From Tabrizicola soli (GTDB lineage: Bacteria; Pseudomonadota; Alphaproteobacteria; Rhodobacterales; Rhodobacteraceae), in the NCBI RefSeq assembly GCF_015999335.1, contig NZ_JAEACP010000019.1, positions 1-64,000 of the forward strand: a stretch of 64,000 nt of DNA. Direction: 5' to 3'. A model generated the notes under the pieces. The model saw only the letters and a program-made list of their open reading frames with translations. It was not told the DNA's origin and did not search any database. Made by a program: the position numbers and the translations under genes. This document shows, one piece after another, positions 5,305 to 45,011 of the stretch (position 1 is its first letter; every line of letters starts with the position of its first letter).

Positions 5305-6228
5305 TTGGCCTGCCTCGAGATCGTTCACACCACGACCTACAGATACCGTCAAAACGTCCCTCTTGGACCCCATCGGTTGATGCTACGTCCCCGAGAAACA
5401 AGGGAACTGCGACTACTGGAACATGCCCTCTCCATTTCTCCGACGGCGACGGTGACTTGGGCGCACGACGTGGCCGGCAACGCTGTCGCCACCGCCGTCT
5501 TTGACGACGTGACGGATCATCTGGTGATCGAGAGCCGTGCCACAGTGGATCTCACCGCGCCTGCATGGCCGGTCTTTGCCATCGCCGCCTCGGCCGCGCA
5601 GTACCCCTTTGTCTACGCCGACGACGAATGGACGGATCTGGGCGCGTTGACTGTTCCACAATATCCCGACCCGGACGGTCGGCTTTCCCTTTGGGTCGAG
5701 GGCTTTGTCATGGCGCGCCCGACCGACACGCTGTCCTTGCTGAAGGACATCAGCAATGGTGTGTTCACCCAGATTTCCTACCAGAGCCGCGACACTGAAG
5801 GCACCCAGGCACCGATCGAGACGCTCGACCGGCGATGGGGCTCGTGCCGTGATCTTGCGGTCCTGTTCGCCGAAGCCGCGCGCACGCTTGGGCTCGGTTC
5901 CCGCATCGTATCCGGCTATCTGTCAGACGCGGAAGAATGCCTCTTTGGGTCTGCGGGTTCCGGGTCCACCCATGCCTGGGTCGAGATATTTGTCCCCGGT
6001 GCCGGATGGATTGCCTTCGATCCCACGAACCGAAGCTTCGGGTCCCGGAAACTGATACCCCTCGCCGTGGCCCGAAACATCGCACAGGTGACCCCGGTGG
6101 CAGGTAACTTTGTCGGAACGAACGTCGATTTGCTCTCAATGGAGGTATTCGTAAGAGTGGAGAGTGCTTCGGCACAAGACAACCCGCTCCTGGCCCCAAG
6201 AGGCGAGGCGGACATCGCGCTCGTCTGA
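5305..6228 (+). CDS. Transglutaminase-like protein with N-terminal domain
   Basis: A protein of about 307 residues with the bacterial transglutaminase-like N-terminal beta domain ([20 protein letters not shown]) followed by the catalytic core. All three triad regions are present: Cys in [20 protein letters not shown], His in [10 protein letters not shown], Asp in [11 protein letters not shown] start it at the TTG at 5305, just after the zinc-ribbon stop and just before the conserved N-terminal strand; an ATG at 5206 would add 33 residues overlapping the previous gene. It is the apparently active partner of the His-lacking homologue at 3340. Confidence 0.85.
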
Positions 6229-6489
6229 TGGCCTTTGGGTGGGACTGGCTTGCGCCTGCTGGTTTAAACCTATCCATAACAATGCTTTAAAGACCGGAGT
6301 AGGTTGGAAGTCAGGCCCATCCCCTCCGCCATTCGCCCATCAAACCAGTTTTTGTAGGGCGCTCTCGGATTTCTTCTGGAGGATCAGACCGACTTCGTAG
6401 CAACTCGAAGCGGGTAGGAGGTACCGCTGTGCAATCCTTGTGCAACTTCCCAGATGTCAGCCCGACGCCGCCCATGGAGCGGCAATACT

Positions 6490-16209: not shown

Positions 16210-16541
16210 TGCGCATCGTTCGACATCCCTTGGTCGACCAAGACCTTGCTGCATTGGTAGATCACATCGTCGAAGTGACCGGAGGGGACTTCGACGCCGC
16301 CGGCAGGCGCCTTGATGAGATCGATCATCTTATCGCCGACATCGCTGCCAACCCGACGTCAGGCGTTCGCTTGGCGCCACCGCTGGACGGATGGCTGGTC
16401 CGCCATGGCGGCCGCGGCCATCGTCTTACCGTCGTGTTCCGCGCAGATCTCAACAGGAACTGTGTCTTTGTCGCACTCGTTGCCTTCGGCGGGCAGGACT
16501 GGATGACCGGCGGCGAAACGAGGAAGTCCTTCAGCGGATGA
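16209..16541 (+). CDS. ParE/RelE-like toxin
   Basis: A 110-residue protein of the ParE/RelE superfamily: start MRIVRHPLVDQDLAALVDHI, central DHLIADIAANPTSGVRLAPP, and C-terminal strands HRLTVVFRADLNRNCVFVAL. The start at 16209 is set by overlap with the antitoxin stop. ParE-type members poison DNA gyrase; RelE-type cleave mRNA. The pairing with a ParD-like RHH antitoxin favours ParE. The pair probably stabilises the plasmid. Confidence 0.85.
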   Translation: MRIVRHPLVDQDLAALVDHIVEVTGGDFDAAGRRLDEIDHLIADIAANPTSGVRLAPPLDGWLVRHGGRGHRLTVVFRADLNRNCVFVALVAFGGQDWMTGGETRKSFSG

Positions 16542-16991
16542 CCGAGGTGCGTCGTGGCGAGAAGGGCGTGTGCGACAGTTCTACTTTGCGGCTACAGAAT
16601 CGAGACGCATAATTTTGATTATGTCATATGCAGTGACGCGATGGGCGGAAAACCGTCTGACGGCACCGCAGCAGGAAGAGCGCAGCGAAATCGAGAAAGC
16701 GGTCAGTCATGCAGCGCACGGCGAGGTGACCGCGCGCCGGACCTGCGCGGGTGGTGAGCGGTCATGCGACGGTGCCCGCGTATCATCCGCAGGTCCGGCG
16801 GAGAACTGCCGTTTTCTAGGCCAATACAGATAGCGATTCAGGTCGGAAGGGGGACGCCAAGTTTTCGAGGGCCATTCGCAAGAGCGGCCGTTATTTACAT
16901 CGTTTTCAGAAGCGCTACCGGCCTATTGCTGAACATTCGATGAGGCGATATCGCATATCGCAATGCCACGGCATCTGATCATCGGAAGCGA
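16542..16991. other. Gene-poor stretch of 450 bases
   Basis: Nothing convincing is coded here; the open frames present have no ribosome sites and read as low-quality sequence. A 10-bp palindrome GCGATATCGC lies at 16945-16954, followed by a second ATATCGC. Base composition drops in GC from about 16840 to 17250, unlike the flanks, which suggests a patch of different origin. Confidence 0.4.
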
Positions 16992-17222
16992 TCAATGTTT
17001 GGAGGCGTACCTGCGTACTACATATCGATTTATATATGAATTGAGGCCCTCGCCAGCATCCGCCAGTCGCTTCATTTTTTCAACATGCTCAGACCCGGCA
17101 CTCAAATACGTATATCGAAAAAACCGGTTAGCCCCCTTTTCGAACTCTACTTCAATCCAATCTGGGCCGTACTCATAACCGATTACACCTGAGTCGCCAT
17201 CTACATCTCGATATTTCGGCAT
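16992..17222 (-). CDS. KTSC-domain-like small protein
   Basis: A 76-residue protein resembling the KTSC domain: SGVIGYEYGPDWIEVEFEKG, then FRYTYL and, near the end, a G-x-x-x-N-x-Y-I motif (GLNSYINRYVVRRY). KTSC domains are small beta/alpha modules found alone or on RNA/DNA-linked proteins. It is the last gene of the sbcD-sbcC operon, three bases after the zinc-ribbon gene, and is lower in GC than its neighbours. A specific role is unknown. Confidence 0.65.
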   Translation of the reverse strand: MPKYRDVDGDSGVIGYEYGPDWIEVEFEKGANRFFRYTYLSAGSEHVEKMKRLADAGEGLNSYINRYVVRRYASKH

Positions 17223-17225
17223 TTC

Positions 17226-17534
17226 TTAGTCTCCACAGCTATTGAAAAGGTCGTCTGTTTTCTCATCTCGCTTACGCGAAAGTCGCTCGCCCAAGTGGAG
17301 GCAGGGATGCTTGATCCTTGAAAGTCCTTCTCGACCCTCGAAATGAGCGCTCCCTCCGTTGGGCATTCGCACCGTGATGACTTCGGTTCCGCAAATGGGG
17401 CATTGGTGACGAAGTCTACGGCGCTTCTTCTCGTCTGACGAATGCTGCAACACCCAACTTGCACGGACTTCAGTGGTCCTGCCGTCCGGCAGCCGCCGCG
17501 AATGTGAGCGTCTTGGGATCCACCGATGCCCCAT
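17226..17534 (-). CDS. Small zinc-binding protein coupled to sbcC
   Basis: A 102-residue basic protein. RHQCPICGTEVITVRMPNGG is one half of a probable zinc site, and a later HPCLHLG supplies a further Cys and His pair. The ATG overlaps the sbcC stop (TGATG), so translation is coupled to the SbcC homologue. It could be an accessory subunit of the SbcCD complex; that is inference from coupling alone. Family not recognised. Confidence 0.65.
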   Translation of the reverse strand: MGHRWIPRRSHSRRLPDGRTTEVRASWVLQHSSDEKKRRRLRHQCPICGTEVITVRMPNGGSAHFEGREGLSRIKHPCLHLGERLSRKRDEKTDDLFNSCGD

Positions 17535-20500
17535 CAGACAAGCCCTCTTTCTTCCACGTTACTCCCGGCGATTCCTTTCCTGACATAGAAGCCATTCGGG
17601 ATCGCCTCCTGGACGAGCGGCACATGCGAAATCAGACCCACGGCTCGGTTCTGTCGAACGATGGAGTTGAGAACCTGGAGGACCAGGTCGAGCGTGCCGG
17701 ACCCATTCTCGGTGTCGAGGCTTCCAAACCCCTCGTCGATGAAAATCGTGTCGAGCCGGACCTTACCGTTCGCGCTTTCGACCGCGTCGGCAAGACCCAG
17801 TGCGAGAGCAAGTGCGGCGATGAACGTCTCGCCGCCTGAGAGGGTGCTCGCGGCGCGCGACTTCCCGGTGTGAAAATCGAACACCTGGATGCCGAGCCCG
17901 CGGCTACCGCGTCCGGCCCCGTCGAGATCTCGTTCAAGCCTGTAGCGGCCGGAGGTCATCGGGGCGAGCCGCAGGTTAGCGGCTTCCAGCACCTGGTCAA
18001 ACATCGCGCCGATCGCGAATGTCTCCAACGTCAGTCTTTGCGAGTTCTGCCCGTTCACCAGCGCTGCCAGTCCGCGCAGCGGGCCGGATGCCGACTCAGC
18101 TTCGTCAAGCTTGCGCAGGGTCTCTTCCATCCCCGTTCTGAGCCTATCCAGTTGGTCAACACGGCTCCGGGCGGCAATGCGCTCTTCGGTCGCCCTGCCG
18201 AGCGTTTCGGCATGGGTCTGGTGCGTTTCCCGTAGCGCTTCGAGATCAGGCCGGGACATCCCTCCGATCGCAGAGGCGGCATCTGTGGCTGCATCAGACG
18301 CACTCTTGTGCTCGCGCAGGTAGGTCTCGACGGCTTCTCTATCCTCATCGAGAGTTTCGATGGCCGGCTTGAGGGATTGAAACGCCTCTGCTGTGAGGCC
18401 AGCGCCAGCCAGTCTGGTACGGAAGACCTCCACCGCCTTCTGATGGCGCGTCTTGCAGTCCGCGAGCGCCTTGTCCGCGCTTTCGAGATCCTTGACCGCG
18501 CCGAGTGCCTTTTCGCGCGCGGAGCTAAGCGCCTTTTCCGCCGCGGTCCGCGCCGTCTGAAGCGACTCCAACGATCCGGCCACCTTCTTCAGTGTGGCCG
18601 CGAGCGCCGGCGCATCGCGCAGGTCTTCCGGTACCTCGGAAAGCCTGCCATCGCGCGCCGCCTTGGCCTCAGTTGCCTTGTTCCGCCGCTCATCGAGGCA
18701 GTCCCGCAACTCATCGCGTTTCCGCTCAAGTTCCTCGATCTGCCGTCCCAGTTCCTCGATCCCAGCCTCTGCAGCAGCAATGTCGACCCGGGGCCCAAGC
18801 GCTGCGAGTGCGGCGTCCTCACGACCGATCTGCGCCGCGATGACTTCCGCACGCTCTTCTGGCGTCTCCAGGGCGAACAACCGTTTCCGTCGCTCCTCGA
18901 GCGTCGCTTGCGCCCCGACTAGTGCTTCGCCGGCTTGCCTAGCTTCGCGATCGGCGGACAGCCATGCCTCTCGTGACTCTCTGAATGCCTTGTCCAGGCC
19001 GGCACCACCGATTTCGCCAGTCGCCGGCGCAGGATGGTCGGTTGCGCCGCAGACCGGACACGGCGACCCTGCTTCCAATCTTGTCGCAAGGTGGAGCGCC
19101 TGTGCGGCCGCAAGGTTCTCTTCGGCCGTTTCATAATTTTGTCGCGCGCGCTCGGCCCTTCCTGACGCAGCTTCAGACTTCCGTCGCTGTTCTTCGACAG
19201 CGCCCTGAGCCGTTGCAACATCCTGCAAAGCGCCCTCGTGGGCCTTGGCTGCCAGATGCAGTTTGTCGAGATCCGCGCGCCGGCCCGCCATCTCGGCGCG
19301 CTTCGTCTCCGTCTCGCGCGCGGCTTTCAGCACGACGTCTTTAGAGGCGCGCGTCTCCTGCAGCTTGGTCAGTTGAGCCTTTGCCGCCTGAAAAGCGTCT
19401 TCAGCGTCCCGCTGCTCATTCAGTGCGGTTTCGACCGCCCAATTGCTATCGGCTGCGGCCTCCAGGATTCGGCCATACCTCTCCAGTTCGTCGCTTGTCC
19501 GGCGAAGGGTCTCGACCTCGTCAGCACGGTCTTCCTCACGCCGGAGCACCTCTGCCGCCTTCTCTGCTTCTCTGGCAGCAAGCTCAGCAGCCCCGTCTGC
19601 CTTTTCGCGCGCGCTCTCGGCTTCCCTAACCTCGCGTTCGACGTCCCTCACACGTTCCTCGACATCGATCAGACCGCGCGCGCGCTCGGCTTTTCGGGCC
19701 TGCTCGGCAAGCGCCTCGACGTCGTCCTTCCGCGCCTCAAGTGCACGAAGCCTTTCCCTCATCTTTTCGGCCGCCACGAACTTTTCCTCGATGGCCTCCG
19801 CCAGGCGCAGCGCCTCCTCGGCAACTTCCACCGTCGCCTTCCCGGTTTCTTCGATCGCGCGAAGTTCTGCACATTTCGCAGTTGCGGTTTCGATGCCCGC
19901 GATCAGTGCATCGGTGCTCTCGAATCCTTCAGCCACGAGCTGCCTAGCACAGAGCGCACGTTCATCCCGCACCTGCCGTTCAGCCTCATCAGCTGCGGAC
20001 TTGAGTTCAGCCATGAGCTTCTCGTACAGCGAGACATCGAAGAGTTCTCGCAGGATTTCGAGACGCTCTTTCGTCTTGGCCGAAAGGAATTTCTCGAAGC
20101 GCCCTTGCGGCAGCAGGACGATCTGGCGGAACTGCTCAGAGCCATATCCGAGCATCTCCATGACAACCGCGTCGACGTCGCGCACCTTCTTCTCGGCTAC
20201 GATCTTGCCCCGCGCCGCATCTGTAATTGCCTCCAGCGCCATTCCGGTCGCGTCGAACAGATAGGCTTCATGCGCGCTTCGAGTCTCGCCTTCACCACGC
20301 GCCTTGGGTCGCATCTGGTCGGGTCGGCGAAGGACGACATATCTCCGCTCTCCAATGTCGAACACGAACTCCGCTTCGGTCACTACATCCGGATCGGCGT
20401 GATCCGAGCGCAGCGATGGAGCCTCTTGCTCCGCCTTTGCCGCTTCTCCGAAGAGCGCGAAGGTCATCGCGCTGAAGATGGTTGATTTGCCCGACCCAGT

Positions 20501-20608
20501 CTGTCCGTAGATGCCAAAGAGGCCGGCCTCGACGGCATCCCGAAAGTCGATGACGACCCGACCCGGATAGGGACCGAACGCCTGAAGCGTGAGCCGAACC
20601 GGTCTCAT
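17534..20608 (-). CDS. sbcC: SbcC-like SMC-type exonuclease subunit
   Basis: A 1024-residue Rad50/SbcC protein. Walker A lies in GIYGQTGSGKSTIFSAMTFA near residue 35, the Q-loop region in QFRQIVLLPQGRF, then two long coiled coils around a zinc hook CPVCG near residue 515, and at the C-terminus the ABC signature STLSGGETFIAALALALGLA and Walker B TIFIDEGFGSLD. With SbcD it forms an ATP-dependent nuclease that opens hairpins and DNA ends. It overlaps sbcD by four bases (ATGA) and a small zinc protein at its 3' end. Being plasmid-borne and paired with a WYL regulator is unusual for a housekeeping sbcC. Confidence 0.95.
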   Translation of the reverse strand: MRPVRLTLQAFGPYPGRVVIDFRDAVEAGLFGIYGQTGSGKSTIFSAMTFALFGEAAKAEQEAPSLRSDHADPDVVTEAEFVFDIGERRYVVLRRPDQMRPKARGEGETRSAHEAYLFDATGMALEAITDAARGKIVAEKKVRDVDAVVMEMLGYGSEQFRQIVLLPQGRFEKFLSAKTKERLEILRELFDVSLYEKLMAELKSAADEAERQVRDERALCARQLVAEGFESTDALIAGIETATAKCAELRAIEETGKATVEVAEEALRLAEAIEEKFVAAEKMRERLRALEARKDDVEALAEQARKAERARGLIDVEERVRDVEREVREAESAREKADGAAELAAREAEKAAEVLRREEDRADEVETLRRTSDELERYGRILEAAADSNWAVETALNEQRDAEDAFQAAKAQLTKLQETRASKDVVLKAARETETKRAEMAGRRADLDKLHLAAKAHEGALQDVATAQGAVEEQRRKSEAASGRAERARQNYETAEENLAAAQALHLATRLEAGSPCPVCGATDHPAPATGEIGGAGLDKAFRESREAWLSADREARQAGEALVGAQATLEERRKRLFALETPEERAEVIAAQIGREDAALAALGPRVDIAAAEAGIEELGRQIEELERKRDELRDCLDERRNKATEAKAARDGRLSEVPEDLRDAPALAATLKKVAGSLESLQTARTAAEKALSSAREKALGAVKDLESADKALADCKTRHQKAVEVFRTRLAGAGLTAEAFQSLKPAIETLDEDREAVETYLREHKSASDAATDAASAIGGMSRPDLEALRETHQTHAETLGRATEERIAARSRVDQLDRLRTGMEETLRKLDEAESASGPLRGLAALVNGQNSQRLTLETFAIGAMFDQVLEAANLRLAPMTSGRYRLERDLDGAGRGSRGLGIQVFDFHTGKSRAASTLSGGETFIAALALALGLADAVESANGKVRLDTIFIDEGFGSLDTENGSGTLDLVLQVLNSIVRQNRAVGLISHVPLVQEAIPNGFYVRKGIAGSNVEERGLV

Positions 20609-21747
20609 TGCATATCCTCCGTCTCACGCAGACGACCGAGGGCTACCGCCACGACCGCCAGTTCGTTTTCCGAGAGCCGGTCTCCGCGCGCATGTTCGAG
20701 GAAGTCGCCAACGACCTCGACAGGGTTCGCAAGCGCCAGAGCGCGCCCGACCAGTAACTTGGCCGCTGGTGCGCGTTCATTCCGCTCGTAGGCAAGTTCA
20801 CAGGCGTTTGGGAACACCTCGCGAATGCGCTTCATTCCATCGATCACGGGTGCATCGTCGGTAAGCACTACCTTAATGAAATCGTCAGATCGCTCCGCGA
20901 GGAGAAGTTCAGCGTGTCGTCCCTTCAAGACGCGCACCCGGCGAATGGGTTCGAAGGGAATGGTCTCTATCGCCGCTCGCCCGACCGCATCGATCTCGAC
21001 GAGGCTCATCGACTTCTGGCAGTCAAATTCATCAAATCCGAAAGCCAACGGCGATCCCGAGTACCGGATATGAGAAGCGCCGACTGATTGCGGCCGGTGT
21101 AGATGCCCGAGCGCCACATAGTGAGCACCTTCGAACACGGCAGAACTAACGGTCTCGACGCCTCCGACCCGAGTGAGAGGTCGCTCACTTTCGCTGCTCA
21201 ATGCACCGGTTATAAAAGCATGCGAAACGACTACCCAACGCGCGCCATCCGGAATGTTCCGCCTGCCACAAGACACCTGAGCGGTGAGGACGTCCTCAGG
21301 GGTGTGCAGGGCTTCATCAGCGAAGCATTCGCGGGCGGCATACTCATAAGCGAAGGGCAACCCCGTGAACGCCACGGGTCCGTAGGCGTCAGTTAGGATT
21401 AGAGGCTGTTCGTCCGCTCTGATGGCTCCTCGTATCAACGCGCGCCGCGCGTCGGTCATGATTGACATAGAGGCGATTCGATCCCCCGAGTCATGATTGC
21501 CGGCGATCATGACCACAGCGGCAGCGGTCTCCGAAGCTACGCGCGCGAGGAACCCATTGAACTGGCGCACAGCAGACGTCGGTGGGGCCGCCCGATCAAA
21601 AATGTCCCCTGCAATAACAAGGACATCGACCCTGTTGGACGTGATCGCCGATACGATCTGGTCAAGAACTGCGCCGTGGTCGGCATCGAGAGGAATCCCG
21701 TTGAACTGACGCCCAAGATGTAGGTCGGCGGTGTGGAGAATCCTCAT
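20605..21747 (-). CDS. sbcD: SbcD-like metallophosphoesterase nuclease subunit
   Basis: A 380-residue Mre11/SbcD-family nuclease. All phosphoesterase motifs are visible: RILHTADLHLG, VIAGDIFDR, MIAGNHDSGDR, WVVVSHAFITG and VALGHLHRPQ. The C-terminal capping region is present but divergent from chromosomal SbcD. It is the first gene of the operon and is divergent from a WYL-type regulator, with an inverted repeat between them. Confidence 0.95.
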   Translation of the reverse strand: MRILHTADLHLGRQFNGIPLDADHGAVLDQIVSAITSNRVDVLVIAGDIFDRAAPPTSAVRQFNGFLARVASETAAAVVMIAGNHDSGDRIASMSIMTDARRALIRGAIRADEQPLILTDAYGPVAFTGLPFAYEYAARECFADEALHTPEDVLTAQVSCGRRNIPDGARWVVVSHAFITGALSSESERPLTRVGGVETVSSAVFEGAHYVALGHLHRPQSVGASHIRYSGSPLAFGFDEFDCQKSMSLVEIDAVGRAAIETIPFEPIRRVRVLKGRHAELLLAERSDDFIKVVLTDDAPVIDGMKRIREVFPNACELAYERNERAPAAKLLVGRALALANPVEVVGDFLEHARGDRLSENELAVVAVALGRLRETEDMQ

Positions 21748-21754
21748 GGCCTAA

Positions 21755-21790
21755 TCCATATAATTTTTGTTCGTATAATTTCTATATGGA
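21755..21790. promoter_or_regulatory. Inverted-repeat operator between sbcD and WYL regulator
   Basis: Perfect 8-bp arms TCCATATA (21755-21762) and TATATGGA (21783-21790) separated by an AT-rich 20-base spacer that contains two TATAATTT-like direct repeats. It sits in the 76-base gap between the two divergent start codons, so bound protein would cover both promoters. Arm size and spacing are like sites of BrxR/CapW-type WYL repressors. The whole gap is much more AT-rich than its surroundings. Confidence 0.65.
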
Positions 21791-21823
21791 CAAATCGTCG
21801 GGAGTCAAGGTAGTGATGCGCCC

Positions 21824-22630
21824 ATGACACTCGACGACCTTAAGCACGCTCAGAGAGAGCGCCTGATCTTTCTGGACCGCTGCCTGACTTGGCGGGGGAT
21901 CGCGAACCGCAGGGATCTGATCGAGCGCTTCGGTATCTCGACTGCGCAGGCGGCGCTGGACTTCCGAGTCTACCTCGATCTCGCGCGCAGCACACCGCCA
22001 ACCTACGATCCCGTGCGAAAGACTTATATCGCTGCGCGTGGGCACGAGCCGTTAGCACCATCCAGCCTGATCGAAGCCTTCGATATCTTAGCGAGCGACG
22101 ATGAAAACAAGCCATCGTCCGCATTGCCACGACCAGAACGGAAGGCAGATCAGAGGACCATCGCGCTTCTTCACCAGGCAATTAGGTCGGGAAAGGCCCT
22201 CAACGTCTGTTACACATCAATGTCGTCTGGAGCGGACGAAGGGCAATGGATAGCGCCGACTCGCTTCACATCTGACGGTGAAAGCGTTCACGTCCGTGCT
22301 TACAGCTTCAAGCATGGAGAATATCGAAACTACCTTCCCATCCGCATCGATCCTGACAGTTCGTTTGAGGCACGAAACCAGGCCGAGCCACTACCGGAGG
22401 ACGTTGACTGGGACACTCGGGCAATCATCTGGCTGCGCCCGAAGTCAGGGCTCTCAGAGCGGCAAGCCAACGTGGTCCGAAGGGAGTTCAGCTTCGAGGG
22501 CGATTTTCTGAGCGTGGAAACGCGGAAAGCTCTTGAGTTCTTCTTTGATCGGCGATGGGGGCTGAACGAGAAGGGCTCGCGTCTTGAGCGGGTAAGGGTC
22601 GAATATCAAAAAATAAAAAACTCTGGCTGA
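21824..22630 (+). CDS. HTH-WYL transcriptional regulator (BrxR/CapW-like)
   Basis: A 268-residue protein with an N-terminal winged helix (RRDLIERFGISTAQAALDFR), a linker, and a WYL domain whose core is WIAPTRFTSDGESVHVRAYS followed by YRNYLPIRI. The C-terminal ~70 residues would form the dimerisation part. Length and layout match the BrxR/CapW family, which represses BREX, CBASS and other defence operons until an infection signal relieves it. It is divergent from the sbcD-sbcC operon. The match to BrxR/CapW is by architecture, not by alignment. Confidence 0.75.
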   Translation: MTLDDLKHAQRERLIFLDRCLTWRGIANRRDLIERFGISTAQAALDFRVYLDLARSTPPTYDPVRKTYIAARGHEPLAPSSLIEAFDILASDDENKPSSALPRPERKADQRTIALLHQAIRSGKALNVCYTSMSSGADEGQWIAPTRFTSDGESVHVRAYSFKHGEYRNYLPIRIDPDSSFEARNQAEPLPEDVDWDTRAIIWLRPKSGLSERQANVVRREFSFEGDFLSVETRKALEFFFDRRWGLNEKGSRLERVRVEYQKIKNSG

Positions 22631-22785
22631 CCTACATTTCCCATGTCCGGGACGCTTTTCACCGTGCTCGTCATAAAGATCGAACCCACAACTAGAGCCG
22701 AAGCTTGCTGCCCTTGTTGATTCAGGCAAAGACTCGGATGAACTCCTTGGCTAGGTGGTAAGGTCAAAGAAGAAATTCTCGCTGG

Positions 22786-23805
22786 TCAGCTCTCCAACTT
22801 CGGGCCAGTAACTCTGATCGGCAAGCTTTTGTCCGCAACGATGCCCCGCTTATGTCCACGAACTCTGACGACTTTTCCGCTGGAGTAGTGCCGCTCATGC
22901 TCGCTTACCCAGTGTTCGATTGGTGTCGCTCGGCCGGAAGCCCGGGCCGCTTCGAATTGACGCCGTGCCTCGCGCTCAACCAGGTGCCGCTCGCCCGATG
23001 GACCGATGCGGATCGTAAGATGGGACCGGAGCGTTTCCGTCATCCAGGTCTTGCCGAACTTCCGGGCGGTCTTCGTCTGCTCGGGCGAAAGACTGGATGC
23101 TTCGTCCGACAAGAGATCGTCCTCGCGTGCTGCTAAGGCCGCGAACAGCATGAAGCCAATCACCATCTCATAGCTGACGTGCCCTTTGTGCTCTTCGAGT
23201 AAGGCTTGCACATCTTGGATGTGTTCTTCGGTGCGGCCTCGGGCATGTGCCATCAATACGTTCATCTGCGGCTGCCAAGCTGCGTCAATGAAGTCCGGGC
23301 GACCACCCGACTTTCTGAGAACGAGGGTTGCTAGAGGCTCCAGGAAGCTTCGATCCGTCATGCCGTTGAAGAGCCGCACGGTCATCGAATCTTCCGACCG
23401 GTTGTCGAACAAAAAGCCTCGTTGTGAGAGATGCCTCAGGTCAAGATCCCCCATGGTGGTCAGGCCCCTGGCGACGCGGTCCATCCAGAGCTGTCGGGCG
23501 TCGTATTCGACCCACACGAGTTCGCGCGGAAAATCAACGTCGCGGACGTAGCTCTGGATCTCTGACTCGTCTCGGGTCTCCCACGGCATGCCCTGCACAT
23601 CCATGCGCAGGCTGTCGAGATAGTTTGCAGCGCGGTGGTCTAGCAAGTAAATGCGGGCACCGGCTAACTCGGTCAGGATTGCCCGGCGATTGACCCGGGT
23701 TTCGTCCGTTGGAGACTTTCGACCAACGAAATCAAGTTCATTGCCCGGCCGACCAGTCTCGAGGAAACGCCCAAACTGCAAAGCGATCGTTTTGTAGAGG
23801 ATCAT
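22786..23805 (-). CDS. Hypothetical protein of 339 residues
   Basis: Soluble protein without a recognised domain. Visible landmarks are a Trp-rich central region (VDFPRELVWVEYDARQLWMD), a helical stretch with SYEMVIGFMLFAALAAREDD, and a basic C-terminus (HWVSEHERHYSSGKVVRVRG) that could bind nucleic acid. AGGACC lies before the ATG at 23805. It is convergent with the WYL regulator; no operon partner is obvious. It may be part of the same accessory module but there is no direct evidence. Confidence 0.65.
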   Translation of the reverse strand: MILYKTIALQFGRFLETGRPGNELDFVGRKSPTDETRVNRRAILTELAGARIYLLDHRAANYLDSLRMDVQGMPWETRDESEIQSYVRDVDFPRELVWVEYDARQLWMDRVARGLTTMGDLDLRHLSQRGFLFDNRSEDSMTVRLFNGMTDRSFLEPLATLVLRKSGGRPDFIDAAWQPQMNVLMAHARGRTEEHIQDVQALLEEHKGHVSYEMVIGFMLFAALAAREDDLLSDEASSLSPEQTKTARKFGKTWMTETLRSHLTIRIGPSGERHLVEREARRQFEAARASGRATPIEHWVSEHERHYSSGKVVRVRGHKRGIVADKSLPIRVTGPKLES

Positions 23806-31189: not shown

Positions 31190-32212
31190 TCAGTCAGGCT
31201 TGAACGATGCATTAGCCCTGCGCGCGATGTCCGCGCAGCGGTCCATCAAGTCGCCAAAGGGCTCTGGTGTTGATGCAAGCAGGCCGTCCTCGACCATCCG
31301 GCGATAATCGTCGGCGAGAGCCTTGAGAGCATCGCCGCCTGGGACCAGTTGTAGATGCCCAGAGGTTGCGGCGCCGTAATCGATCCATGTGGCATCCGCG
31401 GCTTTCTCTGCAAAGAACATTGTCTTGTGCTTTGCGACAGCGGTCCCAAGTGCGCGATCTTCGATGGCCGCAGCAGCGATGCCCGCATCATCCAACCGGG
31501 CGACATCATGCCAGTGTCTGGAAAAGCGATCCCCTCGCATACGGCTCTGCAAACAGAACACGTGGATCGCCGTCGCCTTTTCCCAGAAGGTCCGTTCTGC
31601 ATGCATCACGCGCGGGCGAGCAGACGGAAACTCAAGGCCGTCGACGGCCACCGCTGCGTCACAGACAATGTCTCGCGCTGATGCCGGCTCTCCGGTAGAA
31701 CGCGCGCCAAATTCAAGCATCACACTCGGAGAAACGTATCCCGTGCCTTGGGCGAGGTGCGGGTAGTCGATGAACAGCTTGTCGCCGTCAATCCGAAGCC
31801 TGGCATCGATCCCTTCCCGATCAATCGCCTGCTGCAGGATCGGCTGAATGGTCCCGGCCACCCATTCAGGCAAAGCCTGTCGGACACGTTTCGACCAGCG
31901 CCGCTCTTCGCTGGATGTGGCGGGCATGGCATCTTCACGACCCTCGAGCAAATCAGGGATAAGCGCCCGAATATCGAAGGTCAGATCCACATCCTCGGAA
32001 AACCGGTCAACGACCTGGTAGGCCTTCGACAGAGAGGTGCCCCCCTTGAAGACGAGGTTTGTGCCGACGGGCGATCCAAACAGCTGCTGGATAGCCCAGA
32101 CCACCCAGACGTCCTTTTCGAGGAGATGGGCTGGCCGGCCAAGCAGATCGGCTGCGACGCCAAGAGCATCCAACCGGTCTTTGGCGGTGAGGCGCAGGAA
32201 TGCCTCAGCCAT
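31190..32212 (-). CDS. AbiEii-type nucleotidyltransferase toxin
   Basis: A 340-residue toxin of the AbiEii family. The nucleotidyltransferase motif is LVFKGGTSLSKAYQVVDRFS followed by EDVDLTFD, giving the G-S and D-x-D elements. It overlaps the AbiEi antitoxin gene by eight bases. The AbiE system gives phage abortive infection and plasmid stabilisation (type IV toxin-antitoxin). Confidence 0.9.
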   Translation of the reverse strand: MAEAFLRLTAKDRLDALGVAADLLGRPAHLLEKDVWVVWAIQQLFGSPVGTNLVFKGGTSLSKAYQVVDRFSEDVDLTFDIRALIPDLLEGREDAMPATSSEERRWSKRVRQALPEWVAGTIQPILQQAIDREGIDARLRIDGDKLFIDYPHLAQGTGYVSPSVMLEFGARSTGEPASARDIVCDAAVAVDGLEFPSARPRVMHAERTFWEKATAIHVFCLQSRMRGDRFSRHWHDVARLDDAGIAAAAIEDRALGTAVAKHKTMFFAEKAADATWIDYGAATSGHLQLVPGGDALKALADDYRRMVEDGLLASTPEPFGDLMDRCADIARRANASFKPD

Positions 32213-32798
32213 GGACCATCTTTCCGATCAGTCGTGCCAGCCAAGTCGGGAACTGCGGCGCGGCGGACACGAGTTCGGTCTTTGCCGTCTCCGTGAGCTT
32301 GGATCGCAGGATTTGCAGGCCCTTGGGAGCCTCATCCGGACCGAGCCATGCCAGAGCCCGGACAACCTGGCCCGAGGTCTTGCTCCCAAGGGCCAACTGC
32401 CAGCGCGGCGCATGACGCAGTTCGACTGCCTGCCGGCCAAGGTTCAGCACACGGCTTCGTCCCGAGGTGAGGTAAACCGTCTTGACCGGCACCTGCGTGG
32501 TCAGGCCCAAAGCGTTTGCCGCGGCAGCACCGCTCGGCACGATCGTCTCGCCCCGCTGCACAGCCAAAGCTTCGATCGTTTGTTCAGCCGACGGACTGCG
32601 CGGACCAAAGCGTGTCTGGACCGGGCGCATGTAGATGCCGCGTCCCGCACGGATCAACTCGCCGCGCGCGGCCAGACGCGACAGCGTCTGATCGACCGCA
32701 GCGCGCGAGCCAAGGTGCAAGAGCCCCTTCGCTGCCAAGGGCACCCCCTCCGGCAACGTCGTCGCGACATTCATAATGCTCTCGGCCATGCGCTCCAT
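32205..32798 (-). CDS. AbiEi-type antitoxin and repressor
   Basis: About 197 residues. The N-terminal winged-helix region (GVPLAAKGLLHLGSRAAVDQ, then TLSRLAARGELIRAGRGIYM) and the C-terminal antitoxin domain are typical of AbiEi. The start at 32798 is fixed by AAGGAG upstream. AbiEi proteins repress their own promoter by binding inverted repeats; such a repeat lies at 32810-32837, just upstream. Confidence 0.9.
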   Translation of the reverse strand: MERMAESIMNVATTLPEGVPLAAKGLLHLGSRAAVDQTLSRLAARGELIRAGRGIYMRPVQTRFGPRSPSAEQTIEALAVQRGETIVPSGAAAANALGLTTQVPVKTVYLTSGRSRVLNLGRQAVELRHAPRWQLALGSKTSGQVVRALAWLGPDEAPKGLQILRSKLTETAKTELVSAAPQFPTWLARLIGKMVHG

Positions 32799-32809
32799 GA
32801 TCGCTCCTT

Positions 32810-32837
32810 TGTCAGAAACATACACGGTTTTCTGACA
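32810..32837. promoter_or_regulatory. Inverted-repeat operator of the AbiE system
   Basis: Perfect 9-bp arms TGTCAGAAA (32810-32818) and TTTCTGACA (32829-32837) with a 10-base spacer, starting 12 bases before the AbiEi start codon. AbiEi-type regulators are known to autoregulate through paired inverted repeats, so this is the probable site. Confidence 0.7.
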
Positions 32838-40625: not shown

Positions 40626-43091
40626 TTACAGCACCACCTCGTGCGACTTGAACGAGATGCCAGCCGTCTGCGCCGTTGCGTTCGAGATCTTGCGGATATC
40701 GCCCCAGCAGTGCTTGTAATCCGGCAGCACCAGTTCGTTCACGCCGGGGTTCACCACGTTGCCTTGGCTGCCCGCTGGCGAGCCGAATACCATCGCTACG
40801 GTGTTCCGCTTCAGCGTCGGCATCGGATAGGCCATGCCTTGCGTTACGCCGTTGTCGTTGATGATCTCCAGCAAATCGCCCGGGTTCAGGCCCAGTTCCA
40901 CCATGTCGTCGGGGTGCATCTCGACGAAGGGGTGGGGATAGCGGTCTTGCACGAAGTCGTTCTTCTGGTCGAGGAACTGGTTCTGCCAGAAGATGTTCGC
41001 CCGGACGTTGTTGATCCAGAACCGATGCGCCGCCTGTTCGCGGGCCTTGCCCGGTGCTTGCCAGCCACGCCAGCCTGCGGCACAGAATAGGGCCTTTCCA
41101 TCCTCGCGCCCGTGCCGGGTGAAGCGACCGTCGGTATACAGACGCTCTGTCCCGACAAGTTGGCCGTTCTCGAAGCCCACGACCGGCTCCTGAACCCCGT
41201 TGTTGCCCATAGCGCGCAGGCGCTCATAGGTCACTTCGGGATTGCCCTTGTTGTAGCCGTCCATGAAGGCGTCTTCCTCGGTCGCCCAGTCATAGCCTTT
41301 GAACTGGTCGGCATAGGCGTACATCCCCATCTCGCGCAGGACACGCTCCATGCTCTGAGCGACTCCCGCTGCGATCAGCGCGTCGGGCTTGGAGTTGCCC
41401 CATGGGTCCATGTACTTTTCCGACAGCCGCAGACGCCGTTCGCCGTTCATCGACGTCAGGTTCATCTCGTTGGCTTCGCAGGCCGGCAAGATGACATGGG
41501 CGTTCTGGCCGATCTGGCTGTGGATGATGTCCACGTCCACCACGAACAACCCGCCCGCATTGATCGCCGAGACGATGGCATCGACCACCTGCTCGCGCGT
41601 GCCTCCCGCCGCGGCGTCGATCGCGTCCTTCACCATGTCGGACCGGCGCTTGTGCACCCGCTTGAATTCACTGGCGTTGAGCGTGGTCTTGTAGTGGTCG
41701 CAGGCCCAGATGTGGTGCACACCGCCCAGGCCCCGGATCAGGAACTGGTCGACGTATTCCGCCGGCCGGCCGACATGTGCGTCGCCGGGACGGTAATAGC
41801 CTTCCTGGTGCCCGCCCAGACGGCAGACGCCGCCGCCCTCGCGGCCGATGTTGCCGGTGGCCAGCGCGATGTTCACGATGGCACCGATCGTGCGGTAGTT
41901 GTCGTTGCCCCAGATGATACCCTTTTCATAGCAGGTCACACATTTGCGGCGGCTGCCATCGTCTTTCGGTTTGGCGATCCATTCGGCGGCCTTGGCGATG
42001 TCCGCTGCAGGCACGCCGCAGATCTCGGCCGCCTCGTCCAGCGACAGACGGCAGGCCGTCATCGCGTGCTCTAGACTGCCGAGGCTTGCTGGATGGGCTT
42101 CATCCTCGGCAACCGCGACGCCCTCGGGGAAGGTCGACGCAGCGATGAACTCGGCATCGATCCACCCCTTGTCCACGATCTCGGTCAGGATCGCGTTGCA
42201 CAGCGCAAGGTCAGTGCCTTCCTTGATAGCAAGGTGCAGAACGTTCTCCGGTCCCGCATACTGCTCGGACGAGGCGATTGTGAGCGTGCGGCGCGGATCG
42301 ACCACCACCATCTTTGCGCCACCCTGCAGACCCGGAACCATGTGGTTCAGATAAAGGTTGGTCTGCGTTTCCATAGAGTTCGCGCCGAGCATGAAGATCG
42401 TGTCGGTCAGCGTGTAGTCCTTGTAGGCGTAGTTCAGCTCGTCCACGCCCATGTCGCGCGACGAATGGACCTCAGAGTTATAGGCGGGTCGGTTATGGAT
42501 CCGGCAGTTCTTGATCTTCATGCTTTCGAAATAGAGCTTGCCGGTGCCCCAGGTATTCTCGTAGCCGCCGGCGCTGCCACCGTGGTCGAACATCGAGACC
42601 ACGAGGTCATCCTCGGACCCTTCGGTCACCACACGCGCGGTCACGCGGGCCACGAGGTCGAGCGCGTCTTCCCAAGAAGTCGGTTGCCAGACACCATTGC
42701 GCCAGACCAGCGGATCGGAAAGACGCTGCGCTTGGGTGCCGGTCACGCGGCTGGGACGATTCTCGGCCATACGGGCACCGCGGATCGAGCCGAGGCCCGA
42801 GTTCACGGAACAGTTCACATCCGGCTTTACCACCAGTTGCACGTCGCGCCCGTTCTGGCGGACGACGTTGTACATCGAAGGCGCATACCACGCTTCGGTG
42901 TCCATGACCTGCTGTTCGCTCAGATCGACGCCGAACTTGTTCTGTTCGGGTGCGGTTCCGCCCTGACGGTTCATCGGCCAAGTGTAGGCCTTGTAGCCGC
43001 AGCCGACGATGCAGTAGTGGCAGGTGACGTTGAATTCCTGCGCATCGGCAGGGATGATCGGCAGGCGGCCGACTTGACGCTTGAAAGCCAT
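40626..43091 (-). CDS. aioA: Arsenite oxidase large (molybdopterin) subunit
   Basis: An 821-residue DMSO-reductase-family catalytic subunit that oxidises arsenite to arsenate in the periplasm. The N-terminal CHYCIVGC gives the C-x2-C-x3-C ligands of the [3Fe-4S] cluster, followed by GCGYKAYTWPMN typical of AioA. Further family parts: RIHNRPAYNSEVHSSRDMGV, FMLGANSMETQTNLYLNHMV and the C-terminal MVFGSPAGSQGNVVNPGVNE. It has no Tat signal of its own and would be exported with AioB, 15 bases upstream. Length is normal for the family. Confidence 0.97.
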   Translation of the reverse strand: MAFKRQVGRLPIIPADAQEFNVTCHYCIVGCGYKAYTWPMNRQGGTAPEQNKFGVDLSEQQVMDTEAWYAPSMYNVVRQNGRDVQLVVKPDVNCSVNSGLGSIRGARMAENRPSRVTGTQAQRLSDPLVWRNGVWQPTSWEDALDLVARVTARVVTEGSEDDLVVSMFDHGGSAGGYENTWGTGKLYFESMKIKNCRIHNRPAYNSEVHSSRDMGVDELNYAYKDYTLTDTIFMLGANSMETQTNLYLNHMVPGLQGGAKMVVVDPRRTLTIASSEQYAGPENVLHLAIKEGTDLALCNAILTEIVDKGWIDAEFIAASTFPEGVAVAEDEAHPASLGSLEHAMTACRLSLDEAAEICGVPAADIAKAAEWIAKPKDDGSRRKCVTCYEKGIIWGNDNYRTIGAIVNIALATGNIGREGGGVCRLGGHQEGYYRPGDAHVGRPAEYVDQFLIRGLGGVHHIWACDHYKTTLNASEFKRVHKRRSDMVKDAIDAAAGGTREQVVDAIVSAINAGGLFVVDVDIIHSQIGQNAHVILPACEANEMNLTSMNGERRLRLSEKYMDPWGNSKPDALIAAGVAQSMERVLREMGMYAYADQFKGYDWATEEDAFMDGYNKGNPEVTYERLRAMGNNGVQEPVVGFENGQLVGTERLYTDGRFTRHGREDGKALFCAAGWRGWQAPGKAREQAAHRFWINNVRANIFWQNQFLDQKNDFVQDRYPHPFVEMHPDDMVELGLNPGDLLEIINDNGVTQGMAYPMPTLKRNTVAMVFGSPAGSQGNVVNPGVNELVLPDYKHCWGDIRKISNATAQTAGISFKSHEVVL

Positions 43092-43802: not shown

Positions 43803-45011
43803 TCAAAGACCAAGCTTCTGCATCTTCTCCCAGAGTGTCGTCCGGGAAACGCGGAGAAGCTTTGCAGCCTCTCGGACCTGGCCACCCGTTCGCTCCAGTG
43901 CAGCCGCAATCTGTGACCGCTCGGCCGCATCCCGCACTTCGGCAAGAGATCGCGATCCGGCATCGCCAGCCCGTTCAGGAAACAGGTCCGATGTCAGCAC
44001 GAGATCGCCAACCGCCGCCTCGACGGCGCGCAGCAGTCGGGCACGCAATTCGCGCCCATTCCCAGGCCAGTCATGCGCCCGGATGGCCTCTTCGGCAGAT
44101 GCGGCGATCCCGGTCAGCGGACTGGCCCTGCGGGCATTCATCGATGGAAAGAGACGTCTGGCAAGCCAGACGGCATCTTCCGGTCGCTCAGACAGTGCGG
44201 GAACGACAATCTCATGCGAGGTGAGAAGCGACAGGAGATCGGACCGAAAATGATCGACCACCTTCTCGTCAAGTCTCAGCCCGGCCGTCGCGATGAGCCG
44301 AAAGTCCGCCTTTCTGAGCGCGGCAAGCAGCAAGTCCTGGCAATCTGAGGTAAGGCGACCAATGCCGACGATGATCAGGCACCCCTCACCAGCACTGGAG
44401 ATGGCTCCGGCGAGTGCCGCTGTGTCGACGGTTCCGCCGAGTGCGTCGATGACCACGGCTGGGGCTGCCCGCCGGTCGGAGTGTTCGTGAATGCGCCGGG
44501 CAAGCCTGACCTTGCCAAGCCCCGGACCACCACGCAGCAGAACGGGTGTGTCGCGACCTGCTGCATCGGCCACCTGCCGGTCGATTGCGCGGGCTGCCTC
44601 GGAGATTCCGGATTCAGGGGGCATCTCCTGGTCGGCGCGTGGCTGCATGACGTGGGTCAGACGGATCAGGAGCTGAGCGATGTCAAAAGGCTTTGCAATG
44701 TAGTCCATGGCACCAGACCGGATCAGGCGCACGGCCTGATCGATCGATCCCTGCCCTGTAATGAAGAGAAATGCCGGCGGGTGACCGGTCCGCGTGAGGG
44801 TTTCGTAAAGTTCTTCGCCAGTTCCATCTGGCAGCCGAATATCGCAGATGACCGCATCGACCGGTTTTCTGGGTGTCCGGATCGCGGGCAGCGCGCGTAG
44901 CATCTGACGGTGCCATTGCACTTCGGCCCCTTCGAGCTCCAGACGTTGGACAAGCGAGGCCCCCATGATCTCGTCGTCCTCGACCAGAACGATGCGCCTG
45001 CCTTCAAGCAT
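43803..45011 (-). CDS. aioR: AioR response regulator with degenerate AAA+ domain
   Basis: A 402-residue NtrC-type regulator. Receiver domain: RIVLVEDDEIMGASLVQRLE with phospho-acceptor Asp in VICDIRLPDG, then Lys in IAKPFD. A Walker A remnant LLRGGPGLGKVRLARRI is present, but Walker B is lost (CLIIVGIGRL replaces LFLDEIG) and no GAFTGA loop exists. The C-terminal WPGNGRELRARLL and Fis-type HTH (AAALERTGGQVREAAKLLRV) remain. It is therefore doubtful that it activates sigma-54 polymerase. It overlaps aioS and precedes aioB in the usual aioXSRBA order. Confidence 0.9.
   Translation of the reverse strand: MLEGRRIVLVEDDEIMGASLVQRLELEGAEVQWHRQMLRALPAIRTPRKPVDAVICDIRLPDGTGEELYETLTRTGHPPAFLFITGQGSIDQAVRLIRSGAMDYIAKPFDIAQLLIRLTHVMQPRADQEMPPESGISEAARAIDRQVADAAGRDTPVLLRGGPGLGKVRLARRIHEHSDRRAAPAVVIDALGGTVDTAALAGAISSAGEGCLIIVGIGRLTSDCQDLLLAALRKADFRLIATAGLRLDEKVVDHFRSDLLSLLTSHEIVVPALSERPEDAVWLARRLFPSMNARRASPLTGIAASAEEAIRAHDWPGNGRELRARLLRAVEAAVGDLVLTSDLFPERAGDAGSRSLAEVRDAAERSQIAAALERTGGQVREAAKLLRVSRTTLWEKMQKLGL

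Follow-up and report, generated by a model that had tools for sequence, protein, structure and literature searches.

Does a plasmid-borne SbcCD nuclease serve DNA repair or immunity? This question is raised by a locus of Tabrizicola soli (Rhodobacteraceae; RefSeq assembly GCF_015999335.1) at positions 16,992 to 22,630 of a 64,000-nucleotide stretch (contig NZ_JAEACP010000019.1, positions 1 to 64,000), which was analysed as a whole and is called the window here. In this locus an sbcD-sbcC operon is divergent from a gene encoding a WYL-domain regulator, and a preliminary description based on the letters of the window had proposed an inducible nuclease system, possibly a novel defence module. We found that the SbcCD pair has intact motifs and belongs to a separate clade, that its divergent regulator is a CapW/BrxR family member, and that a conserved dyad lies between the two; a coupled CxxC protein is frequent, and the surroundings are rich in defence genes. 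On balance, we infer an accessory, horizontally moving SbcCD module under its own BrxR/CapW-type repressor switch, whose DNA-end nuclease would serve defence. Carried on plasmids of alphaproteobacteria, the mobile WYL-SbcCD unit is probably an inducible defence module not yet described. Enzyme and regulator family are each known, in a conserved pairing of which we found no description.

The WYL-sbcD-sbcC unit

All five open reading frames (ORFs) of the preliminary description were confirmed, and are given here with the intergenic dyad:

21824-22630, + strand: WYL regulator gene, 268 amino acids (aa), BrxR/CapW family
21755-21790, no strand: 36-bp dyad, operator candidate, between sbcD and wyl
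20605-21747, - strand: sbcD, Mre11-type nuclease, 380 aa
17534-20608, - strand: sbcC, Rad50-type ATPase, 1024 aa
17226-17534, - strand: ZN, small CxxC...HxCxH protein, 102 aa
16992-17222, - strand: 76-aa protein, earlier labelled KTSC-like; an occasional neighbour, not core

The sbcD and sbcC genes overlap by 4 bases and sbcC and ZN by 1 base, at the sbcC stop, which is consistent with the translational coupling of sbcD, sbcC and ZN proposed earlier; the gene of the 76-aa protein starts 3 bases after ZN.

The linkage of the regulator to sbcDC recurs in both genome and plasmid collections (L, G and H numbers are our own labels). A scan of genome contigs with the regulator returned 29 loci, and in 29 of 29 sbcD, whole or truncated, lies divergent beside the WYL gene; L033 in this set contains no more than the beginning of the regulator, SbcC is truncated by the end of some contigs, and L018, L019 and L031 have a shortened SbcD frame. 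In the plasmid collection, 155 records match SbcC, the best 60 of which were used. Among the matches listed, all 37 records with an SbcC of the clade (H1-H36 and H40; at least 345 bits, a cut-off set after viewing the lists, at the gap between 345 and 303 bits) carry the WYL gene, and the 23 listed non-clade records were judged by their absence from the close WYL matches listed. The 39 plasmid records with a WYL match of at least 37% identity include all 37, and the matches ranked below do not exceed 33%; the remaining two are Rhizobium leguminosarum copies. In one of these, L075, the locus is rearranged and broken by an insertion sequence (IS); its sbcD measures 840 bp, and a piece resembling the SbcC C-terminus lies at some distance. 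Among sampled genomes, clade SbcD (above 340 bits, with the cut-off likewise set after viewing the lists, at the gap between 342 and 260 bits) was detected in 17 genomes across overlapping samples of the class (386), the order (292) and the phylum (397). The WYL gene adjoins it in 14 of the 17, and a WYL match was found at 1 of the 36 other SbcD loci examined (L119, at the edge); these checks covered the loci that the search returned, about 1.5 kb on each side. The divergent arrangement seen in the window is thus borne out, and by its recurrence the WYL regulator with sbcD-sbcC is a conserved three-gene unit. Elsewhere, a gene encoding a distant SbcD-like phosphoesterase is divergent from a WYL-like gene (27% identical; L061:1123-3185), possibly a parallel arrangement to WYL-SbcD.

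The regulator matches the Pfam WYL model with 24.2 bits (cut-off 21.8). A profile built from 21 regulator sequences aligns with CapW 7tb5 (E 5.8e-51, residues 8-252 of 268 on 22-276), with two further CapW structures (7tb6, E 1.9e-48; 9c5g, E 3.9e-47) and, nearly over the full length, with 7qfz (E 2.7e-43) and BrxR 7t8k (E 8.2e-41), while PafBC is a much weaker match (best E 1.9e-7). Judged by these alignments, the protein is a member of the BrxR/CapW family with a helix-turn-helix-WYL-C-terminal architecture, as the preliminary description had it. Like the BrxR/CapW regulators of BREX (bacteriophage exclusion) and CBASS (cyclic oligonucleotide-based antiphage signalling system), it stands beside the genes that it would control, with a palindromic operator candidate and a defence neighbourhood, but it faces the first gene, sbcD, of an SbcCD operon instead of BREX or CBASS genes. 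CapW is described as a repressor of CBASS that binds palindromes overlapping the -10 element (PMC9122588). The ratio of nonsynonymous to synonymous substitution rates (dN/dS) of the regulator is 0.13 and 0.12 with two relatives. A second WYL regulator, 31% identical to that of the window, is encoded on contig C21 of the host genome (L034:10615-14640 on), with a short stretch resembling the SbcC C-terminus just upstream. It is followed by a 1036-aa DruH3-like gene and then by an open frame of at least 1807 aa, which suggests a Druantia-III-like system.

The gap between the start codons homologous to those of sbcD and wyl measures 70-77 bp in 37 loci, the window counted. In the window, the arms TCCATATA (21755-21762) and TATATGGA (21783-21790) form the ends of the 36-bp dyad. 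The sphingomonad copies L029-L032 have the arms TCCATCTA and TAGATGGA, altered on both sides; at other loci, e.g., L005, the changes are one-sided or uneven. In a set of 22 loci of lower redundancy the outer arm pairs are complementary in 117 of 176 cases versus 52 +/- 6 after shuffling, with the right arm placed by its own pattern, and 0 of 2000 shuffles reached 117, a count that is not a probability because the loci are related. The dyad between wyl and sbcD appears to be a conserved symmetry and a candidate operator. The inverted repeat noted earlier is real and its symmetry recurs in relatives; that it covers a shared promoter, as also claimed, we presume, as a scan of 16500-22900 gave no sigma-70 consensus promoter (mean of shuffles 1.3) and the promoters are therefore not placed. 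A GAGTCAAG-like element at 21794-21820, between the dyad and the WYL start, recurs by eye in many intergenic regions.

As for the enzyme, SbcD matches TIGR00619 with 149 bits, above the cut-off of 77.65, and phosphoesterase motifs (relaxed patterns) are present in 35 of 35 full-length SbcD. SbcC carries Walker A, a CPVC zinc hook, the LSGGE signature and a DEGFGSLD Walker B, and is matched by Pfam AAA_23 and SbcC_Walker_B. Its scores below the curated NCBIfam cut-offs (TIGR00618, 263.6 of 478.5 bits; NF041751, 342.4 of 920) mark it as a divergent SbcC member. Walker A, hook and signature were recognized in all 35 loci and Walker B (relaxed pattern) in 33; of the other two, L022 has 281 masked bases in the gene and L044 reads DEGFGHLD.

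The best PADLOC match of SbcC is LmuB, a partial one of 70.5 bits on the 1024-aa protein. LmuB belongs to Lamassu (LmuA/LmuB/LmuC; DdmABC), a Rad50-like system (PMC10586767) which shares with our locus the coiled-coil ATPase with a zinc hook. However, LmuB generally has glutamine in place of the Walker B glutamate (PMC10586767), while here a full-length SbcC retains this glutamate and is accompanied by an Mre11-type nuclease. No other Lamassu protein was found among the nine proteins scanned (five of the operon and four neighbours). The operon is not a listed PADLOC 2.0 system: SbcC, SbcD and the WYL protein gave partial or domain-level matches, and ZN and the 76-aa protein none. Nor did we find a WYL-SbcCD module described in the literature; newer defence catalogues, preprints not deposited in PubMed Central and most papers behind a subscription lay outside this search, so an earlier description may exist there. 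No word starting with Sbc, Rad50 or SMC occurs in the three main texts of the founding BrxR/CapW papers (supplements lay outside), and in the accessible portions of PMC11127173, PMC12288472 and PMC7824862 both words of the pair occur, but in unrelated places.

Accessory distribution and small companion proteins

SbcCD of this type shares both subunits, the catalytic motifs and the zinc hook with housekeeping SbcCD/Mre11-Rad50, but it forms a separate group, is sporadic, resides largely on plasmids or in accessory regions, has its own WYL gene and often an extra small gene. In a maximum-likelihood tree of 68 SbcD, the 29 WYL-linked proteins and three exceptions cluster together as a group of 32 (support 92/92, slightly below the level that the tool stars; midpoint root), separate from the host family's three canonical SbcD (L129-L131) and from the other SbcD included. 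The preliminary description noted that housekeeping sbcDC normally lacks these partners; a grouping with the housekeeping copy of the host family, which would have spoken against its reading, is not seen in the tree. The WYL-link label needs four changes on the tree; one gain and three losses would explain it. The clade is held by 12 of 292 genomes of the order and 6 of 386 of the class, and some members are located on contigs of 1.3 to 4.3 Mb. An SbcD match at E <= 0.001 is lacking in 346 of the 386 sampled genomes of the class, and the four other genomes of the genus that were searched all lack an SbcD match. Elsewhere in the host genome neither SbcC nor SbcD is encoded in full; the only matches are a short stretch like the SbcC C-terminus and a phosphoesterase distantly resembling SbcD.

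The window also encodes a relaxase, a type IV coupling protein and RepB/ParB-type proteins, consistent with the plasmid location claimed earlier, and close relatives of the operon are found on plasmids typed as conjugative. A phage origin was also considered: among 50,697 phage records, 2 hold a WYL relative, distant and 25% identical, and 19 hold an SbcD relative of at most 43% identity; IMG/VR yielded one WYL contig and two ZN contigs.

The ZN gene is intact directly after sbcC in 23 of 35 loci, which represent 11 clusters at 90% identity. It is split at L039 and missing from 11 further loci, of which L022 is partly masked. At L043 an HNH protein occupies the ZN slot, the same HNH-type protein is found in the slot at L151, and at L157 an HNH gene lies near it. 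All 15 sequences compared share residues C45, C48, H76, C78 and H80, and dN/dS is 0.20-0.22 with two close relatives. From this motif only we infer that ZN binds zinc; of the small zinc protein of the preliminary description, the recurrent CxxC partner stands, while the metal is read from the motif. A PDB profile search with ZN gave eS27 as the best match (E 0.011).

ZN matches occur in 33 plasmid records, 10 of them outside the records listed for SbcC. By reading, the stretch before ZN resembles an SbcC tail at L076, L077 and L080. In Agrobacterium and Rhizobium (L078 and L079), an open ZN frame (5986-6333 and 5980-6291, respectively) lies directly before genes encoding a CD-NTase and a 2TM effector, which constitute a CBASS operon. 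This ZN relative is divergent from an XRE regulator and unannotated, which refers to the plasmid gene table, incomplete by its own description.

A relative of the 76-aa protein adjoins the operon at only one of the 29 genome-contig loci (L027), and also stands beside the rearranged L075. Relatives are present in eight plasmid records, two of which, from R. leguminosarum (CP018231 = L075, and CP016287, judged from coordinates), have them near WYL and ZN; at L081 neither WYL nor ZN appears in the annotation. As core partner this protein was rejected, being rarely beside the operon. The Pfam KTSC model (PF13619) gave no match in the host genome at E up to 10, nor for the window protein or its relatives at L027, L075 and L081 at E up to 0.1, and KTSC membership was accordingly dismissed. 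Of the five-gene set that had been described, the regulator and the CxxC protein are thus kept beside SbcCD elsewhere, but the fifth gene mostly is not, and its KTSC label is withdrawn.

Defence surroundings and possible roles

An enrichment near known defence genes, a point raised by the preliminary description, was observed. At E <= 1e-30, 120 flanking ORFs on eight plasmids match 73 PADLOC families, versus 1 family for 134 control ORFs, to which each plasmid contributed a single distant region (L036 and L045 and the controls L082 and L091 were left out). These scans count families, not proteins, many models match one and the same protein, and the output does not name the matching member. 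The families listed (25 of the 73) include Shango A, B and C with three members each, BilC, BilD, AbiEi and AbiEii with two each, two of helicases and one of HerA; if no protein is counted twice, they correspond to about 20 of 120 flank ORFs versus 1 of 134 control ORFs. In an unblinded by-eye count of annotations in ten pairs, taking Shango and Bil homologues as defence, defence genes were noted in 9 of 10 flanks (not L042) and 2 of 10 controls: L091, annotated with Fic, RES and antitoxin genes, and L086, with an ABC-three-component gene cut at the edge. For 11 of 14 genome-contig loci, 120 ORFs match 76 PADLOC families, including Gabija, with no control set. The window itself has a defence pair, given as context only:

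31190-32825, - strand: AbiEi/AbiEii pair, about 9 kb from the operon (PADLOC AbiEii 9.2e-99, AbiEi 5.2e-67)

A CBASS operon lies beside L043, and a SIR2 and an ATP-binding gene beside L041. In the distant members L041, L043, L044 and L157 the same-strand genes downstream of WYL vary (WGR, SIR2 with ATP-binding, CBASS, AbiH and others), and at L040, L041, L044 and L157 the end of the WYL gene and a WGR-domain gene overlap. It looks as if this stretch were a cargo slot sharing the WYL switch, and the WYL gene may also be a shared switch for exchangeable same-strand defence cargo downstream (CBASS at L043; SIR2 and HerA-type at L041). In the Sphingomonadaceae plasmids L042 and L159, a DUF6035 gene directly follows WYL and has no PADLOC match at E <= 1e-5. 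Other genes of the window include a molybdopterin oxidoreductase with a Rieske_3 domain (40626-43091), which we take to be arsenite-oxidase-like, and, on the same contig, a response regulator with a sigma-54 interaction domain (43803-45011).

A defence module of this kind could work as follows. In the resting cell, a WYL dimer on the dyad would keep its own gene repressed, together with sbcDC-zn. A nucleic-acid ligand arising from infection, entry of foreign DNA or DNA damage would bind the WYL domain and release the dimer from the dyad; such a ligand is proposed here, single-stranded DNA (ssDNA) being the ligand of other WYL regulators. The resulting burst of SbcCD would cut phage or plasmid DNA at exposed ends, hairpins or ends blocked by protein, with ZN, or the HNH protein replacing it, as a putative DNA-binding adaptor or second activity, and repression would limit damage to the host's own DNA. 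The hairpin ends of phage N15 are shielded from SbcCD by TelN (PMC12624138). In its most specific form, which we put forward tentatively, Mre11-Rad50 would have become an immune effector under inducible control: a repressor of the CapW type would sense an infection product and free SbcCD with its CxxC or HNH partner, and invading DNA would be destroyed at its ends.

Several observations weigh against a defence role or against the unity of the module. No intact ZN is found in 12 of 35 loci, and the AlphaFold model of ZN is poor (mean predicted local distance difference test 56.4, predicted template modelling score 0.44), so any role for it is a guess. The dyad is weak in L040-L044, where 2 of 8 arm pairs are kept at that spacing, and 3 of the 17 clade genomes (G308, G807 and G690) lack a WYL gene within the stretches fetched near SbcD. 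Some copies look broken, namely those with short SbcD at L018 and L031 and the IS-broken L075. Error-prone polymerase and damage-inducible mutagenesis genes flank L159, and a DNA alkylation repair gene flanks L158. Plasmid accessory regions gather defence genes generally, and a single control region was taken per plasmid. Finally, jumbo phages are reported to encode SbcC/SbcD almost universally (PMC7824862), so the mere presence of SbcCD does not point to defence.

The strongest rival, which we consider rather unlikely, is a plasmid-borne, damage-inducible repair function, in which the WYL protein would sense ssDNA and raise SbcCD for broken or blocked ends, to the benefit of host or plasmid survival under genotoxic stress or of palindrome replication. 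It fits the end-processing activity of SbcCD (PMC10586767) and the repair and mutagenesis genes flanking L158 and L159, and a carried copy could fill a gap, given how many genomes of the class have no SbcD match. PafBC, SiwR and DriD, which share the WYL domain with our regulator, are ssDNA-activated activators of the damage response (PMC12288472), and in PafBC the activating ssDNA acts at the WYL domains (PMC11804915). Yet the regulator is far nearer to CapW/BrxR (E 1e-40 to 1e-51) than to PafBC, the one of the three activators that the comparison covered; the flanks hold many defence families, and ZN relatives precede a CBASS cyclase.

Control of plasmid entry or competition seems improbable. 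SbcCD would then target transfer intermediates or the DNA of incoming or co-resident plasmids, favouring the carrier. In two close relatives on conjugative plasmids the operon adjoins relaxase and coupling-protein genes, both of which the window has too, but the distant members have different neighbours and clade members also reside on the megabase-sized contigs noted above, so the association with transfer genes is not constant. That SbcCD is here an ordinary housekeeping enzyme sitting on a plasmid by chance is highly improbable and already largely refuted: intact catalytic motifs and the abundance of SbcD-type genes in the phylum would suit it, but the sporadic distribution, the link to a defence-type regulator and the tree group apart from the three canonical SbcD of the family led us to reject a relocated housekeeping pair.

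Meaning for SbcCD and WYL-controlled operons

SbcCD/Mre11-Rad50 has been studied mainly as a repair enzyme, and at least one phage guards its DNA ends against it (PMC12624138). A mobile SbcCD consistently paired with a defence-type regulator would provide a simple genetic system to ask whether Mre11-Rad50 serves bacterial immunity. ZN is a small conserved protein that often has no gene of its own in the plasmid table and whose relatives precede a CBASS cyclase. WYL-SbcCD would bring a nuclease into the range of operons that BrxR/CapW-type regulators control.

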